Source of the DNA: a virus
Length of the DNA stretch: 43,088 bases
Reading direction: 5' to 3' (one strand)
Virus record (IMG/VR): IMGVR_UViG_3300036852_000198
Span: 1-43,088 of that record
The notes under the pieces: generated by a model
What the model saw: only the letters and a program-made list of their open reading frames with translations
The model's database searches: none
Told to the model about the DNA's origin: nothing
Part shown: positions 27,591-35,226 of the stretch, in pieces
Numbering within the stretch: the stretch's first letter is position 1
Layout: the number at the start of each line of letters is the position of its first letter
Position numbers and translations under genes: made by a program

Positions 27591-28343
27591 GTGGCCTACG
27601 CGCTCGCCCCCTCGCTCGTCGCGTTCCGCTCCGAGGTCAACGCCCGCTGGCCGCAGCGTGACAAGACCTCGGACGGCTGGATCGGCGACGCCGCCCACTC
27701 CGGCCGGGTGTCAGACCACAACCCCGGCGCCCGCGACCTCGTGCACGCGTTCGACACCGACGAAGACCTCGACGGCAACCCCGCCGACGGTGGCCCGGAT
27801 GCGTGGCCGATCGTCGCCCAGCTCATCGAGAACCGTGACCCGCGTGTGAAGTACCTGATCTACGAGGGCCGGATCATCTCCGGGAACCTCGGACCGTCCC
27901 CGTGGCAATGGCGGCCCTACACGGGCACGAACGCGCACCGGCACCACGTCCACCTGTCGATCCTGTCGACCGTCGAGGCCGAACAGGACACGTCCGCCTG
28001 GCTGGCACCCAAGCTCGGTGGCGGCCCGGTCCCGAAGCCCGTCCCCCTGGAGGATGACGACATGCCGTACCTAACCGCCAGCCGCTTCACCGGTGTCACC
28101 TACCACGACGGCGCCGGGGCGACCTGGATCAGCAGCTCTGACACCGTGAACGAGCTGCGCCGCCAGGGCGTCCCGGTGTTCACCCTCGACGCCAACGAGT
28201 CCGACGCCCGCCGCATCGTCGCCGACCGGGCCGCGAACACCGACGAGCTCACCCTCGACGCCGTCAAGACCGCGACCATCTACGCCGCCGCGACGGCACA
28301 GATCGAGGAACGCGAGGAACAGCGCGACCTCGCCGACGGCTGA
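27591..28343 (+). CDS. Endolysin, M15 peptidase-like
   Basis: The product is 250 residues from GTG 27591. The catalytic half (1-130) shows the zinc ligands of the M15/VanY type: GDAAHSGRVSDHNPG (His 43), LVHAFDTDED (Asp 55) and NAHRHHVHLSI (His 119/121), with YLIYEGRIIS in between. It should cleave peptide crosslinks of the host cell wall. After a proline linker (about 147-155) the C-terminal 95 residues (MPYLTASRFTGVTYHDGAG...) are unassigned and may bind the wall. The leaderless-type promoter and position before the membrane proteins mark the start of the lysis module. Confidence 0.88.
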   Translation: MAYALAPSLVAFRSEVNARWPQRDKTSDGWIGDAAHSGRVSDHNPGARDLVHAFDTDEDLDGNPADGGPDAWPIVAQLIENRDPRVKYLIYEGRIISGNLGPSPWQWRPYTGTNAHRHHVHLSILSTVEAEQDTSAWLAPKLGGGPVPKPVPLEDDDMPYLTASRFTGVTYHDGAGATWISSSDTVNELRRQGVPVFTLDANESDARRIVADRAANTDELTLDAVKTATIYAAATAQIEEREEQRDLADG

Positions 28344-28377: not shown

Positions 28378-28653
28378 ATGCCCGACCGGCAGTGGCCGCG
28401 CCGGCAACGGTCGCTTGAGGAGCTGGACGAGGACGTGCTCGAGCTGCAGCGCGACATCAGGCACGTAGGGGACCGGCTGGACTCTGCCCCATTCGTGCGG
28501 GTCGAGCTCCACAACGAGCAGCTCGACCGGGTCCGGTCCGACATCGCATCGTTGCGGGCGCTCACCATGTGGACCCTCGGCCTACTGTGCTCACAGTTCG
28601 TCGGGGCCATCGTCGTGGTGATCGTTTCCGTGGCGCGGGGTGGCGGATCATGA
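28378..28653 (+). CDS. Coiled-coil membrane protein of the lysis module (91 aa)
   Basis: ATG 28378 lies 35 bases after the endolysin stop. Residues 10-55 form a charged coiled coil (SLEELDEDVLELQRDIRHVGDRLDS, then VRVELHNEQLDRVRSDIASLRAL). One hydrophobic helix (WTLGLLCSQFVGAIVVVIVSVA) is followed by a short glycine end. This layout is common near actinophage lysins, where it is thought to be a holin partner or anchor. The TGA overlaps the next ATG. Confidence 0.7.
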   Translation: MPDRQWPRRQRSLEELDEDVLELQRDIRHVGDRLDSAPFVRVELHNEQLDRVRSDIASLRALTMWTLGLLCSQFVGAIVVVIVSVARGGGS

Positions 28654-29195
28654 TCTCGCGACGCCGCAACGTCGCCCTGTTCGCCGCCGCTGTGCTCACC
28701 GTCGGCCTGCTCGTCGGCGGCGCCTTCTCGTTCGTACTCGACCTCAGCCACGAGGTCGACCAACTGCGCCTCGACCGCGACGTCCTCGCCACGCAGCTCG
28801 AGAACGAGGGCATCGAACCCGCGGTGCCCGACGCCGAGCCGGTGCCCGGCATCCCCGGCGAGAAGGGCGAGCCCGGCCGGGACGGCATCGACGGACAAGA
28901 CGGCGCCCCCGGCCGGGACGGACTCGACGGTGCCCCAGGGAAGGACGGCGCGGCCGGGCCCAAGGGCGACACCGGCGCGAGCGGCACCGACGGCAGCGAC
29001 GGAGCGGACGGAGCCGATGGGGTGGACGGAGCCAACGGGGCGGACGGCCAGCCTGGCGCCGACGGCCGAGGGATCGCCTCACAGGACTGCGTCGACGGCG
29101 ACATGGTGACCACCTACACCGACGGCACCACGTCCACCATCCCCGACTCCCCAGCGTGCCCCAGCGGGCCACCCCCAATCGAGATCATCCCGTGA
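28650..29195 (+). CDS. Collagen-like membrane-anchored protein (181 aa)
   Basis: From ATG 28650 (ATGA overlap), a signal-anchor helix (NVALFAAAVLTVGLLVGGAFSFVL, about 7-30) is followed by a short coiled coil (HEVDQLRLDRDVLATQLE). About 25 Gly-x-y triplets follow (residues 65-142), rich in GRDG, GADG and GKDG. The C-terminus has two cysteines (QDCVDGDMVTTYTDG, SPACPSG) that could form a disulfide. The triplets would form a trimeric rod outside the membrane. Collagen-like repeats in phages usually occur in fibres; an anchored one in a lysis cassette may be a spanin-like rod or a surface protein. Confidence 0.75.
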   Translation: MISRRRNVALFAAAVLTVGLLVGGAFSFVLDLSHEVDQLRLDRDVLATQLENEGIEPAVPDAEPVPGIPGEKGEPGRDGIDGQDGAPGRDGLDGAPGKDGAAGPKGDTGASGTDGSDGADGADGVDGANGADGQPGADGRGIASQDCVDGDMVTTYTDGTTSTIPDSPACPSGPPPIEIIP

Positions 29196-29437
29196 TCGTC
29201 GTCGCCGTCGCCGTCCTGTTGTCCTACACGGTCCTGTCGCTGGCGTGGATCGCGTGGCCGGTCGATGGCGGCTACCGGCCCCGGCACCTGGAGGGCCGCA
29301 ACCCGTACGCCGACGACCTCGAGCGTGCGCTCAGCGCCACGAGACGCAGCCTGAGCCATCCAAGCCCCTGGTCCCCCGCACCCTGGCATCCCGCCACCAA
29401 ACGTCACAGTGACGAAACCCCAAGGAGAGCAACCTGA
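29192..29437 (+). CDS. Small single-pass membrane protein (81 aa)
   Basis: GTG 29192 overlaps the previous stop. The hydrophobic N-terminus (IVVAVAVLLSYTVLSLAWIAW) is followed by a polar tail with DGGYRPRHLEGRNPYADDLERALS and an S/P/H-rich end. The TGA shares one base with the holin-like ATG. It may take part in lysis by topology and position, but no family is recognised. Confidence 0.6.
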   Translation: MIVVAVAVLLSYTVLSLAWIAWPVDGGYRPRHLEGRNPYADDLERALSATRRSLSHPSPWSPAPWHPATKRHSDETPRRAT

Positions 29438-29622
29438 TGGACAAGATTCTCACCAAGGCCAAGGCCATCGCAGCCGCGGTCGGCGCCGTCATCACCCTCA
29501 CGCAGGCCGCGCTCGCGGACCAGGCCCTCAGCCTCGATGAGGCGTCGGGCATCTGGACCGCCGTCCTGGCGGCGCTCACGGTGCTCGGCGTCTACGCGGT
29601 CCCCAACAAGGTGCAGTCGTGA
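29437..29622 (+). CDS. Holin-like small membrane protein (61 aa)
   Basis: A CAAGGAGAG ribosome site precedes ATG 29437. Two hydrophobic segments (KAIAAAVGAVITLTQAALA and WTAVLAALTVLGVYAVP) flank a polar turn with DQALSLDEASGI, and the ends are charged. Size and topology match short phage holins of the mycobacteriophage type (the VLAALTVLGVYAVPN pattern is typical). It would form the membrane lesion that releases the endolysin. The TGA at 29620 overlaps the next GTG-type junction. Confidence 0.78.
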   Translation: MDKILTKAKAIAAAVGAVITLTQAALADQALSLDEASGIWTAVLAALTVLGVYAVPNKVQS

Positions 29623-29918
29623 CGTCGCTCGCCGAAGTGTTCGCCCACCGCCACCCGAGCACGGTGGCCATCCTGCGCTACTTCGACTACGGGCATCTGC
29701 CGCCCGCGCTGCAGGACGTCAGCCGCCCGTGCGCCGACCTCGCCCGCGAGATGGTGAACGAGCTGCCCGACGGGCCCGAGCTCACCACCGGGCTCCGCAA
29801 GCTGCTCGAGGCGAAGGACTGCTTTGTCCGCGTCGCCGTCGACCAGCTCCGCGAGGCCGAGGGCCGCCAGCTCGCCAACACACCCGAACCGTTCCTCACC
29901 CAGGAGGCAACCCTGTGA
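29619..29918 (+). CDS. Probable Acb2/Tad1-hairpin family protein (anti-CBASS/Thoeris sponge)
   Basis: GTG 29619 overlaps the holin stop. The 99 residues are two long helices with the pattern ILRYFDYGHLPPALQDVSRP, CADLAREMVNELPDGPELT and TGLRKLLEAKDCFVRVAV. That pattern matches what I know of the small phage helical-hairpin family that includes Acb2 and Tad1 (DUF7681). Characterised members form hexamers that bind cyclic di-, tri- or ADP-ribose nucleotides and so blunt CBASS or Thoeris signalling. The ligand and activity of this member cannot be read from sequence, and its place in the lysis module is odd for an early-acting defence inhibitor. Confidence 0.6.
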   Translation: MTSLAEVFAHRHPSTVAILRYFDYGHLPPALQDVSRPCADLAREMVNELPDGPELTTGLRKLLEAKDCFVRVAVDQLREAEGRQLANTPEPFLTQEATL

Positions 29919-30181
29919 GCTACACGCTGTCCACCGGCGCCGAGAAGGCCGAGATCCACGAGGCCGTCGTCCAGGCGGTCGAAGGAGTGCCCGAGCCGTC
30001 GATCGAGACGAGCGCCCACCTCGAGGCGATCATCGAGGCGGCTACCCGTCTGGCCGCCGCCATCGGCCGGCCAGAGGATGCGCTGTCGGTGAGCGTGACG
30101 GGCCACAGCAACCCTGACCACGCCCCCGCCGAGGGCTGGGCCGACGAGTTCATCACGGTCACCGTCGCCGTCAGCCGCTGA
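29915..30181 (+). CDS. Conserved phage hypothetical protein (88 aa)
   Basis: GTG 29915 overlaps the preceding stop, with CAGGAGG upstream. The product has helices EKAEIHEAVVQAVEG and HLEAIIEAATRLAAAIG, then strands ALSVSVTGHSNPDHAPAEGWADEFITVTVAV. The SVSVTGHxNPxH...GWA(D/N)E block recurs in actinophages beside the helical-hairpin gene before it, so the two may act together. No function is known to me. It is the last plus-strand gene of the late region. Confidence 0.7.
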   Translation: MSYTLSTGAEKAEIHEAVVQAVEGVPEPSIETSAHLEAIIEAATRLAAAIGRPEDALSVSVTGHSNPDHAPAEGWADEFITVTVAVSR

Positions 30182-30393: not shown

Positions 30394-31446
30394 TCAGTCG
30401 AGACCCAGCTCCAGCTGCAACGGGCCCTTCGAGAAGACGCGCTCGAACTTCCTCCGGAAGTCGTTCATGTCGTCGCACAGCTTCATGATGGTGATGACCT
30501 GCTGGATCTGGTCGTGTAGCCGCTGCTTGCCGTACTTTTCGAGCCACTGATGATGGTTCCGGCGGTGACGCGGGTTCGGGTTGAGCTCGCGTAGCGTGTT
30601 GCCGACGTCCTGGTCGATCGCGTCGTACACGAACATCATCACGTACTTCCCCCATCTCAGCGGTCGGTGCTGGGGTGAGTAGTGGACGCCCTCGAGGCGG
30701 GCGAGCTCATACCAGAACTCGTCGGGGAACACCTTGGCCCACTCCTGTATGTCCTCGGCGATGAAGGCCTGGAGCTTGAGCTGCAGCGCGTTGCGCTCGC
30801 GCACCTTCTGGTAGCCAGTGGCCTCATCGATGAGGGCGATGATCCCGACCTTGGCGCACGCGCGGGTGATGATCTCGGCCATCCTGGCCATGTGCTGCTG
30901 GTTGCTCTTGAGCAGCTTCTGGTCTCGTGCCTGGAGGTAGAGATCGCAGATCTCGATCAGTAGCTCGGCCTGGTACCCGGCGCCGTTCCTCGGGTTTCCC
31001 GGCACGACGAACGGGATCACGCGCTCGTCGAGGGACCCGTGCTGATAGAGGGGCAGGTTTACGAGGTATCGGGACAGATCGCCGCTGTCTCGTCCCCCGG
31101 TGAGGGCACGAACGACTTCGCGCTGGCTCAGAACGCGGTTGCCATCGCTCAGGACATGGACTTCGAATTCGACATCGTCGATGTCGATCGTGCCCTTGAA
31201 CATCGAGTGCGGCAGGTCGCCGGACGGCTTGTCAGCTGGGACCTCGTCGGGCTCGTCGGGCTCGATCGTCTCGGCGGGGATCTTGCCTGCCTTGATCCAT
31301 CGCTGGCGAGCAGCCTGCCGGGCGATCGTTCGCCTCTCCTCTGGCGACAGGACGCTTGCACGCGCCCGGCCTCCCTTGCTCGGGTCCGCCAACAGCGGCG
31401 GGCGTGCGCCGCTACGGGTCTTCGGGGAATCAGGCTTGGCCACATG
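30394..31446 (-). CDS. P63C-domain protein
   Basis: The product is 350 residues. An N-terminal basic/KGGRARA segment and SPEERRTIARQAARQRWIKAG precede a region (about 80-170) with VLSDGNRVLSQREVVRALTGGRDSG and ELLIEICDLYLQARD. The P63C domain (about 190-300) includes LIDEATGYQKVRERNALQLKLQAFIAED and WAKVFPDEFWYELARLEG. P63C proteins occur in phages and mobile elements; some carry antirepressor-like N-termini, but their biochemical role is unsettled. GTG 31446 has GGGAGG at good spacing. It is driven by its own promoter with two palindromic operators, and by third-position base use it is slightly lower in G/C than the late genes. Confidence 0.85.
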   Translation of the reverse strand, partial: HVAKPDSPKTRSGARPPLLADPSKGGRARASVLSPEERRTIARQAARQRWIKAGKIPAETIEPDEPDEVPADKPSGDLPHSMFKGTIDIDDVEFEVHVLSDGNRVLSQREVVRALTGGRDSGDLSRYLVNLPLYQHGSLDERVIPFVVPGNPRNGAGYQAELLIEICDLYLQARDQKLLKSNQQHMARMAEIITRACAKVGIIALIDEATGYQKVRERNALQLKLQAFIAEDIQEWAKVFPDEFWYELARLEGVHYSPQHRPLRWGKYVMMFVYDAIDQDVGNTLRELNPNPRHRRNHHQWLEKYGKQRLHDQIQQVITIMKLCDDMNDFRRKFERVFSKGPLQLELGLD

Positions 31447-31466
31447 GCCTCCCAGCTCGTCGATTC

Positions 31467-31507
31467 TGCTTGCTCGGCAAGCATACCTGTGCTTGCTCGG
31501 CAAGCAA
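31467..31507 (-). promoter_or_regulatory. P63C promoter with two identical 17-bp palindromic operators
   Basis: TGCTTGCTCGGCAAGCA occurs at 31467-31483 and again at 31490-31506, 23 bp apart, about two helical turns. Each is itself a 7-bp inverted repeat around TCG. On the minus strand TTGCTT (31507-31502), a 16-base spacer and TATGCT (31485-31480) form a promoter whose two boxes lie in the two operators. A dimeric repressor bound to both would shut the gene tightly. The cognate regulator is not identified. Confidence 0.75.
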
Positions 31508-32336: not shown

Positions 32337-32944
32337 CAGCGGCTGCCTCGGTCGAGCAGATGCCCGCACAGCACGACGGCGATTGGCGGCAGAGCTGCGA
32401 ACCCCCATCGCACGTACCGCAAGTCGGCCAGCGTCGGGTCGATGGCGAGCACGTTGGCTGTCAGGCTGCCGGCCGCTCCGACGGCAACACCAGCCCACGC
32501 AACCGGGTAGCTGCGCTCGTGCTCCAGGTGGCGTAGAGACACCAGCGCCATGCCGTCGAGCGGCAACGGCATCACCCACGCCCACCAGCCGCCACCGGCA
32601 AGCAGCGCCAGGTGCACGATGTGGCTGTAGGACACCGCCAGCCCGACCGCGAGCACGACCCCGGTGCAGACGACCTGCCACGGGTCCCGTTGCCGACGCG
32701 TTGCCGGCTGCTGTTGCCGGGCCCGTGGCGCCCGGGTTGCCGGTCGATCGACTGCCGGCGACGAGGGCTTGTCGTCCGCCTTGCCGACCTCGTTATTGAG
32801 CTTCTTCGCCCAGTAGCTGCCGGTGCGTTCCGGCACACCCAACTGGCGGCCGAGCTCGGCGCCCGACATCCCTTGCCGCCACAGTTGCCGAGCCCGGTCC
32901 CCGGTCGAGCCGTGGCCGTTGCTGGTCACATCGGTCATCGTCAT
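32336..32944 (-). CDS. DUF2637 (SpdB-like) membrane protein with HTH
   Basis: The product is 202 residues from ATG 32944, overlapping the translocase stop as ATGA. Residues 15-50 (GDRARQLWRQGMSGAELGRQLGVPERTGSYWAKKL) look like a helix-turn-helix. The second half matches DUF2637: VVCTGVVLAVGLAVSYSHIVHLALLAGGGWWAWVMPLPLDGMALVS, then two more hydrophobic helices, four in all. DUF2637/Spd proteins are found on actinobacterial conjugative plasmids and integrative elements beside TraB or FtsK-like translocases and help spread of DNA between mycelial compartments. Presence directly after the translocase in a phage is striking. Confidence 0.8.
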   Translation of the reverse strand: MTMTDVTSNGHGSTGDRARQLWRQGMSGAELGRQLGVPERTGSYWAKKLNNEVGKADDKPSSPAVDRPATRAPRARQQQPATRRQRDPWQVVCTGVVLAVGLAVSYSHIVHLALLAGGGWWAWVMPLPLDGMALVSLRHLEHERSYPVAWAGVAVGAAGSLTANVLAIDPTLADLRYVRWGFAALPPIAVVLCGHLLDRGSR

Positions 32945-35226
32945 GAGGTGGCTCCCTGTTGGGCCCGATCGCGCTCGTGTCGGAGGCTGACGTTCTTCTC
33001 GTTCGTGACCGCCTGGAGGTGCTCGCCGCGGGTGCAGAGCTTCGACGTGCACGGCTCTCCCGGACCGATCCGGTGGTCGACCGTCTCACCCTCGGGGATC
33101 GGGCCGACCTGGTCCTCGAAGGCGAACCGGTGCACGGGGACAGCCCGCCCGCCGATCTTGAAGTAGCCGTAGCCGTCCCCGTTGACCGCTCCGGTCCAGA
33201 GCTCGCAGCCGGCCTCGTCCCGGTCGGCGACCCTGGCGTAGAACCTGTCCCGCGGGGACTCGCCGGGTTGTAGCCATCCACCTAGGGGAACCTTCTCTTC
33301 CGACTCATCGTTTTCGTTGTCGTCCACTCGACCGACTCCGTCGGTCTCGTTCCCCTGGTCCACGTAGGTGGACGTCGTGTTGACGTCCTGCTTCGGCCTC
33401 ACGCGGTTCGGCTCCCAGCGCTGCAGGTCACGAGGGTCGTACTCAGGGAATCGCCCGCGCTGGCCGACTGGCTCGGGGAACTCGCCCTTCTTGCGATCGC
33501 GCTGCGCGGCCTTCTTGAGCGCCTCGAAGTTGAGATCGACGACGCCGCGGCCGTTGTCCTTCGACGCTTCCCACAGCGTCACCGCCGGCACACCACCAGG
33601 CAGGAGGTCTGTCCCGCTAGGGGGACGTTCCCGCATCGTTTCCCCAGGTGAGACGTTCTCGCCGCGATGCGGGACAGCCGTCATCGGCTGCATCCCACGG
33701 CGATCGGCCACCCACTGCTGAGCCTCCTCCTCGCTCATCCTGATGACCTGGACCTCGGTGGCGTTGTCACCGACGCACACCTGGACGCGGCCCTTGATCT
33801 TGGACTTGGGGACGAAGTCGGCCGAGGTGAGCATCTTCCACGTCTGCGGGGTGTGCTCGGCGAGGATCCTCACCGAGAAGTTCTCCCGCAGGTCACCGCT
33901 GCCGACGGCGTTGGCGCTCGCACGCTGCGCCACCGCGAGCACGTTGATCTTCACCGCTCGACCCATGTTGAGGATCGCCGTCAGCGCCCGTATGGCGGGG
34001 CTCGTAGCTGGGTCCCCGGGGCCCCGGATGTCGGTCCAGTGGTCGCGCAGGAGCCCGGCGGTCGTGGACAGCTCCTCCAGGATCAGCACGATCCGCCCGA
34101 AATCGGGGCCCTCGTCGTTGATGCCAACGTGGTCCCACGCGCGGTTGCGGCGGTCGCCCTCGGCGGCGAGCTCGATCAGCATCCGGTGGATCTCACCGAT
34201 GTCCCGCGCGTAGCGGACCCCCGGCAGGTCCCGGAGCCAGCGGAGCGAGTGCCGCTTGTAGTCGGCCACCCACGGTTCGGCTCCGTGCCACATCAGCTGC
34301 GCGGCAACCAGCGTCAGCATCGTCGACTTGCCGCCACCCGTGCCCGCCGACATCAGCACGTGCGGGGACTCGCGGTCCAGGTTCACCTTGTAAGGCCGGT
34401 CACCACGGGTGACCCCGAGCACGAACGTCGACGGCGTCGACTCGCCCTCAACGAGCTTTTGCATCTCGTCGTCCTCCTCGTCATTGAAGGGGGCGACCTC
34501 GCGGATCGGGTCCTTCGGCCAGAACCGGACGTAGTGGTGCCGGCCCTTCATCTCCCAGCGATGGGTCACGTCGCCGCTCAGCTCGAGCTTGGCCCGGATG
34601 ATCTCCTCCACCGCTTCCTTGTTCGCGTTCCGGGGCGCGAACGTCGGCGAGCACCCGACGACCACCCCGTCCCCGCCACGCTCGAGATCGCGGCGGACGG
34701 TGATGTACCGCCACGCCCGGACGCTCATCGCCCGCTCCAGCTCCTTGCCGTCACCGGACGACTTCCCCCATCCCGCGGCCAAGCACACCGCTAGGTGCAG
34801 CGGATAGACCCAACGGAGGTAGTGGGCGACCTTGACCGCCACACACGCGACCACCACAGCGAACGCGGCGAGCCCGAACGTGGTCCCCAGCCCCCAGGCC
34901 GCGAGCGTCGTGACGCCCGTGCCGTTGGGTGCGCCCGAGTCGAGGTACACGACGACGACCAGGCCCGCGGTGCTCGCGGTGCGGACCGCGGCAAGCCCGG
35001 CACGGCGCGACAGCCGATGGGAGCCTTCGTAGCGGGGGGAGCGGCCGGACTCGAGGTGACCGCCGGTGAACCAATGCCAGAGCCACCAGGTGAGATGGCT
35101 GTCCTGCCGCGGGTTGCGGTGCTGGCCCGAGAACGTGACCGCTGCCGCCGCGGCCAGGATAAGGCCCGTGATCGACCAGCCGATCAGCTGCGCCAACCCG
35201 AGCTCGGTCCACGAGGTCAGGTCCAC
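32941..35226 (-). CDS. FtsK/TraB-type DNA translocase fused to a C-terminal HNH nuclease
   Basis: The product is 761 residues. The N-terminus has membrane helices (about 11-31, 85-96, 105-130 and 133-150) separated by a basic loop. An FtsK/SpoIIIE motor follows: PHVLMSAGTGGGKSTML (Walker A, 295-301), WVADYKRHSLRW, and RIVLILEELS (Walker B, 378-387), then NVLAVAQRASANAVGSGDLRENF and the arginine-rich region. A proline/charged linker (530-650) leads to an HNH_3-type domain (about 655-750): YARVADRDEAGCELWTGAV, HRFAFEDQVGPIPEGETVDH (His 699, His 718) and HLQAVTNEKN (His 736, Asn). A hexameric double-strand DNA pump with its own nuclease is expected. The motor resembles TraB of actinobacterial transfer elements. 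Confidence 0.9.
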   Translation of the reverse strand: MDLTSWTELGLAQLIGWSITGLILAAAAAVTFSGQHRNPRQDSHLTWWLWHWFTGGHLESGRSPRYEGSHRLSRRAGLAAVRTASTAGLVVVVYLDSGAPNGTGVTTLAAWGLGTTFGLAAFAVVVACVAVKVAHYLRWVYPLHLAVCLAAGWGKSSGDGKELERAMSVRAWRYITVRRDLERGGDGVVVGCSPTFAPRNANKEAVEEIIRAKLELSGDVTHRWEMKGRHHYVRFWPKDPIREVAPFNDEEDDEMQKLVEGESTPSTFVLGVTRGDRPYKVNLDRESPHVLMSAGTGGGKSTMLTLVAAQLMWHGAEPWVADYKRHSLRWLRDLPGVRYARDIGEIHRMLIELAAEGDRRNRAWDHVGINDEGPDFGRIVLILEELSTTAGLLRDHWTDIRGPGDPATSPAIRALTAILNMGRAVKINVLAVAQRASANAVGSGDLRENFSVRILAEHTPQTWKMLTSADFVPKSKIKGRVQVCVGDNATEVQVIRMSEEEAQQWVADRRGMQPMTAVPHRGENVSPGETMRERPPSGTDLLPGGVPAVTLWEASKDNGRGVVDLNFEALKKAAQRDRKKGEFPEPVGQRGRFPEYDPRDLQRWEPNRVRPKQDVNTTSTYVDQGNETDGVGRVDDNENDESEEKVPLGGWLQPGESPRDRFYARVADRDEAGCELWTGAVNGDGYGYFKIGGRAVPVHRFAFEDQVGPIPEGETVDHRIGPGEPCTSKLCTRGEHLQAVTNEKNVSLRHERDRAQQGATS

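Follow-up and report, generated by a model that had tools for sequence, protein, structure and literature searches.

A widespread phage protein family of uncharacterised function as a putative divergent branch of the Acb2/Tad1 helical-hairpin superfamily

The DNA stretch analysed here (the window) comprises 43,088 nucleotides of the IMG/VR virus record IMGVR_UViG_3300036852_000198. The record resembles a temperate tailed phage and encodes a terminase, a portal, an HK97-type capsid protein, a large serine integrase and a D5-type primase. The gene of interest lies in a late region of the plus strand, where the following features can be delineated:

27591-28343, plus strand: probable endolysin, with M15-peptidase-like motifs; matches phrog_32486, function unassigned
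28378-28653, plus strand: XhlA/holin-like membrane protein of 91 aa; Pfam XhlA at E 0.013, below the cut-off, and a hemolysin phrog at 6e-4
29437-29622, plus strand: predicted holin-like membrane protein of 61 aa; weak matches to holin families only (E 0.05-0.15)
29619-29918, plus strand: helical-hairpin protein of 99 aa of the phrog_5120/phrog_1761 family; putative divergent homologue of the Acb2/Tad1 hairpin superfamily
29915-30181, plus strand: protein of 88 aa from a small family with the motif SGHxNPxHxPxEGWxxExITV, overlapping the preceding gene by GTGA; an occasional neighbour

A lysis cassette, as the first-pass annotation called this region, is plausible but thinly supported: the holin and XhlA matches are as weak as listed, and Pfam gave no endolysin match in the window. 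The ORF at 27591 is presumably an M15-type peptidase, judging by its SDHNPG...HVHLS motifs. A collagen-like triple-helix repeat protein (28653-29195, plus strand) is encoded between the XhlA-like and the holin-like genes. Convergent to the late operon lies a gene for a P63C-domain protein (30394-31503, minus strand; phrog_2384, without assigned function), and a single ORF at 32941-35226 on the minus strand combines an FtsK/SpoIIIE-like ATPase region with a C-terminal HNH endonuclease domain.

The 99-aa ORF begins with GTG and overlaps each of its neighbours by four bases (GTGA), an arrangement that looks as in a translationally coupled operon. Its product contains exactly the pattern FDYGHLP..LQ..SRP...LA.EM...LPDGPELT.GLRKLLEAKD, on which the first-pass annotation had based its assignment to the Acb2/Tad1 family. 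It matches phrog_5120 (E 3.3e-32) and phrog_1761 (E 1.4e-29), neither with an assigned function. Judging by the phrog_5120 match and the family-wide relatives, 29619-29918 is a true gene. The family to which it belongs, here called family A, is matched by 356 phage records (E<=1e-5), and relatives are encoded at at least 43 IMG/VR loci, with best segments reaching 75-80% identity. The spread is very wide, covering phages of Actinomycetota, Proteobacteria and others, and the position in the genome is variable. Many bacteria, ranging from Actinomycetota to Proteobacteria and Cyanobacteria, carry family A in their genomes as well, and many prophages are among these occurrences. Family A is thus a large and widespread phage family of uncharacterised function.

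The genomic neighbourhood bears on whether the protein is a component of the lysis machinery, for example a holin or antiholin regulator whose helical-hairpin shape is incidental. Translational coupling to the holin-like gene in the window speaks for such a role, as do the relative that follows the holin gene in Brevibacterium phage AGM2 and the order endolysin, membrane protein, companion gene, family-A relative in one IMG/VR contig (locus L042); in Gordonia phage Gustav, too, the relative is near lysis genes. However, the 99-aa sequence has no hydrophobic membrane-spanning stretch, and relatives are located in the early right arm of Mycobacterium phage BigNuz and between the portal and capsid genes of Acinetobacter phage Aclw_8. 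Across 38 viral contigs, the two genes on each side of the relatives came predominantly from portal, terminase and head-protease families. Since its members occupy such varied non-lysis positions, family A is not tied to lysis, and we regard a lysis function as improbable. A late position had been considered unexpected for a counter-defence protein; for family A it is the usual one, with portal or terminase genes as frequent neighbours.

The gene at 29915-30181 had been suggested to travel with its upstream neighbour. Its family is uncharacterised, comprises about a dozen loci in IMG/VR, and its product had no relative in the phage collection searched. The co-occurrence check covered the 132 other family-A loci as well as the other companion loci. 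Outside the window the companion adjoins family A in one contig only (L042/L143), where a 45%-identical companion gene directly precedes the family-A gene in a lysis-like cluster; the other companion loci carried no family-A gene within the flanks examined. Co-travel is occasional, and an obligate partnership is rejected.

The direct test of the Acb2/Tad1 assignment, an HMM search against the DUF7681/Acb2 profile, was negative. Neither the 99-aa protein nor the window matched PF24729 (Acb2_Tad1_hairpin; curated cut-off 27 bits) at E<=10, and the protein matched no Pfam family at all at E<=1. The model itself works, since T4 Vs.4 (Acb2), the positive control, was recognised at 71 bits in the same Pfam library. 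Direct PADLOC and PDB sequence searches with the 99-aa protein gave no useful match, and the Acb4 domain PF13876 was absent both from the protein and from the whole window.

Profile comparisons, in turn, point to a remote relationship. PF24729-type proteins were collected as the comparison set; a consensus of this type scored 100 bits in Pfam, and actual sequences were used for all comparisons. An hhalign profile of family A built from 49 sequences aligned to the PF24729 members with a probability of 88.8 and a score of 32.6 over 38 gap-free columns, pairing LA....LPDGpE...gLrKLLEA of family A with LA....CPDSREKS.A.TKLEEA of the PF24729 members. By comparison, 400 column-shuffles averaged about 10 (SD 2.3) with a maximum of 20.4, which places family A about 10 SD above the shuffles; reversing the profile gave 11.7. 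Against the PF24729-member profile, T4 Vs.4 by itself reaches 33.9, a strength equal to that of family A. Single family-A relatives score 32-37, the window protein singly only 19. In profile searches, an HMM of the PF24729 members placed window-family genes at all ranks from 1 to 50 among 20,117 ORFs of family-A loci (best E 2e-4), and in the reciprocal search all 50 top ranks among 3,626 ORFs were PF24729 members. When 500 mixed ORFs were ranked, the places following the true PF24729 members were taken by window-family genes and T4 Vs.4. A combined family-A/PF24729 profile found the solved 'Acb2 homolog 43' (9ptq) in the PDB at E 7.6e-9, followed by Tad1 chains at E 0.15-0.2, and in a joint MAFFT alignment F-x-Y, LA, P-D-G-x-E and K-L-x-E-A were in register between family A and the PF24729 members. 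Direct alignment of the family-A profile with T4 Acb2 gave no match (hhalign probability 0.6), so the connection to T4 Acb2 runs via intermediate members.

The sequences are short, helical and biased in composition, and two unrelated hairpins of this kind might resemble each other, loop included, by coincidence. In addition to the negative PF24729 result, the family-A profile shows a comparable partial likeness to residues 426-472 of the phage sheath-like protein Gp22 of PDB 8jaj (YLHFQHVP...AIS...LARQM..PDG; E 0.017, possibly chance), which means that the short family-A pattern can recur. Coincidence is nevertheless difficult to reconcile with the 50/50 reciprocal ranking, the gap-free alignment far above the shuffles, an hhalign strength equal to that of T4 Acb2 and the matching helix boundaries described below, and we consider it highly improbable. 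Remote homology of family A to the Acb2/Tad1 hairpin is supported by these sequence comparisons, and the 99-aa gene would represent a divergent, Pfam-invisible branch of that superfamily.

The 99-residue protein was described as helical, and the AlphaFold2 model (39 sequences, mean pLDDT 93.5) is indeed all-helical, with helices at residues 13-22, 29-48 and 53-86. On the DNA, the predicted elements are located as follows:

29655-29684, plus strand: short N-terminal helix, residues 13-22 (DSSP of the AlphaFold2 model), followed by the conserved motif F22-x-Y24-x-H26-L27-P28
29703-29762, plus strand: hairpin helix 1, residues 29-48 (AlphaFold2); matches helix 19-40 of the PF24729 member L051 at a residue offset of +8
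29775-29876, plus strand: hairpin helix 2, residues 53-86 (AlphaFold2), with conserved R60, E64, K66, D67 and R71; matches helix 45-67 of L051

The model of L051 (pLDDT 91.9) has helices at residues 4-9, 19-40 and 45-67, and at the alignment offset its two long helices correspond to window residues 27-48 and 53-75. The Acb2 protomer has been described as a short N-terminal helix followed by an antiparallel hairpin (PMC12043709), and the model supports the same shape for the predicted monomer; the two-helix hairpin topology suggests that the long helices pack antiparallel. Foldseek searches of the PDB with the model yielded no Acb2 and nothing at E<1, and Foldseek and VIA-align listed generic helical bundles only, again with no Acb2; so short a helical hairpin is a poor query and such results are little informative. 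The N-terminal antiparallel beta-sheet that precedes the two C-terminal helices in Tad1 is absent, the model being helical over the 99 residues. The first-pass annotation had named a missing profile match together with a predicted non-hairpin fold as evidence against its assignment: the PF24729 match is missing, and the predicted fold is a helical hairpin. The Acb2/Tad1 identity thus stands at the level of the superfamily, where reciprocal ranks, profile-profile scores, protomer shape and helix boundaries agree, and falls at the level of PF24729 as curated.

Two positions of the T4 Acb2 pocket can be traced to the window protein. The Y8A mutant of T4 Acb2 is deficient in binding, and T68M reduces the binding affinity (PMC12657230). 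In the Pfam alignments and the joint alignment, Y8 falls on the Tyr that is invariant in PF24729 and, in turn, on Y24 here, the last step lying outside the confident hhalign block; the tyrosine needed by T4 Acb2 is thereby probably kept. Family A has Y, F, H and W at this position in 63, 17, 8 and 5 percent of cases, respectively. T68 corresponds to the invariant Thr of PF24729 (set A7) and to R60 here, where Thr is absent. R60 is present in about 99% of the relatives, a figure biased by the search pattern, and R60, K61, E64, K66, D67 and R71 are almost invariant, this conservation being partly biased because RKLLEAKD itself served as the search pattern for the genome loci. Of ten phage relatives retrieved independently of it, phiAsp2 and RPP1 deviate from the conserved residues. 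With R60 at the T68 position and near-invariant charged residues around it, family A appears to keep the frame of the hairpin with a different pocket chemistry, and R60 together with the conserved charges lining one face of helix 2 suggests a ligand or a binding pose unlike that of T4 Acb2. Because it falls short of the curated threshold and departs from Acb2 at one tested pocket position, we do not file the 99-aa protein as a member of PF24729 or Acb2.

Homology of the hairpin does not imply binding of immune signals in every case, and the protein could be a true hairpin homologue with another job, for instance regulating late infection, or serving as an adaptor in it, by binding a protein partner or some other small molecule. 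R60 in place of T68 fits such a role, as does a strongly conserved R/K/E/K/D/R motif in helix 2 that differs from the PF24729 consensus; relatives are fused to further domains (crAss001_48) and many adjoin portal or terminase genes. On the other hand, the characterised hairpin relatives known to us (the Acb2 proteins of T4 and PaMx33, and Tad1) all act as signal sponges, and Acb4-domain genes adjoin some family-A relatives. Another job is a serious possibility, though one we would not put first.

The Acb4 sponge belongs to the domain family PF13876 (PMC11722364). In 5 of the 133 family-A loci this domain occurs in the gene that follows on the same strand, namely in four loci and, independently, in an Acinetobacter locus (L191):

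L035, 5430-6278: Acb4-domain gene directly downstream of the family-A gene, same strand
L037, 5436-6248: likewise
L041, 5449-6570: likewise
L221, 2494-3378: likewise
L191, 5435-6595: likewise, with two copies of the PF13876 domain

As these represent about two independent lineages in 133 loci, the adjacency is suggestive only. The family-A genes of the Acb4-adjoining group bear a C-terminal extension, and three family-A members, including that of L041, match crAss001_48 (PF21825).

The single most likely reading, to which we give about an even chance, is that the window protein works as a divergent nucleotide-signal sponge. The short helix and the long antiparallel hairpin would form the building unit; by analogy with Acb2, such units may assemble into an oligomer with an immune second messenger of the nucleotide type bound between the protomers, be it a cyclic dinucleotide, a cyclic trinucleotide or a signal of the ADPR type. 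Capture of the signal would shield the phage against a defence resembling CBASS or Thoeris, and the protein would be made from the late operon, as many of its relatives appear to be. For the window protein itself, oligomer, pocket, ligand, signal binding and counter-defence are all extrapolated from Acb2. More tentatively, the whole phrog_5120/phrog_1761 family may constitute a separate, new class of sponges for nucleotide signals that has a ligand specificity of its own (an R60/K66/D67/R71 pocket), sometimes paired with Acb4 in a two-sponge cassette; such a family would have been overlooked because it falls just below the curated Acb2/Tad1 profiles. Should this branch act as a sponge, a very common family of phage genes without assigned function would acquire one in counter-defence, and the annotation of hundreds of phage genomes could be updated in one step. 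The changed residues of the pocket would then point to a signal or binding mode beyond those of known Acb2 and Tad1, and the sponge hairpin would extend well past the Pfam model, often being made late, amid packaging and lysis genes.

Compared with known systems, the window protein is alike in core size to the PF24729 family (the FxYHxPK...REKS.A.TKLEEAVMWANA type, which includes 'Acb2 homolog 43', PDB 9ptq). The two share a gap-free alignment over both hairpin helices, helix boundaries in the AlphaFold2 models, the F-x-Y entry motif, the P-D-G/S-x-E loop and K-L-x-E-A in helix 2. They differ in the second half of helix 2 (KDCFVRAA in the window protein, VMWANAAI in the PF24729 family), in Arg60 and Ser35 of the window protein at the positions of the conserved Thr and the conserved helix-1 Arg, respectively, and in that the window protein lies below Pfam detection. 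With T4 Vs.4 and PaMx33 Acb2 it shares, according to the model, the short N-terminal helix and the antiparallel hairpin, and probably also a tyrosine at the Y8 position; by eye, E-A-x5-R-A in helix 2 (E72-A73...R79-A80 in T4) is mirrored by E64-A65...R71-x. T4 Acb2 differs in having T68 where the window protein has R60, in a longer loop between its helices and in the lack of a direct profile match. Tad1 shows a distant similarity in its C-terminal hairpin (E 0.15-0.2 with the combined profile); its N-terminal beta-sheet domain is absent from the window protein. Acb4 (PF13876), finally, is a phage signal sponge of an unrelated alpha-beta fold that is encoded directly downstream of family-A relatives in the five loci listed above.
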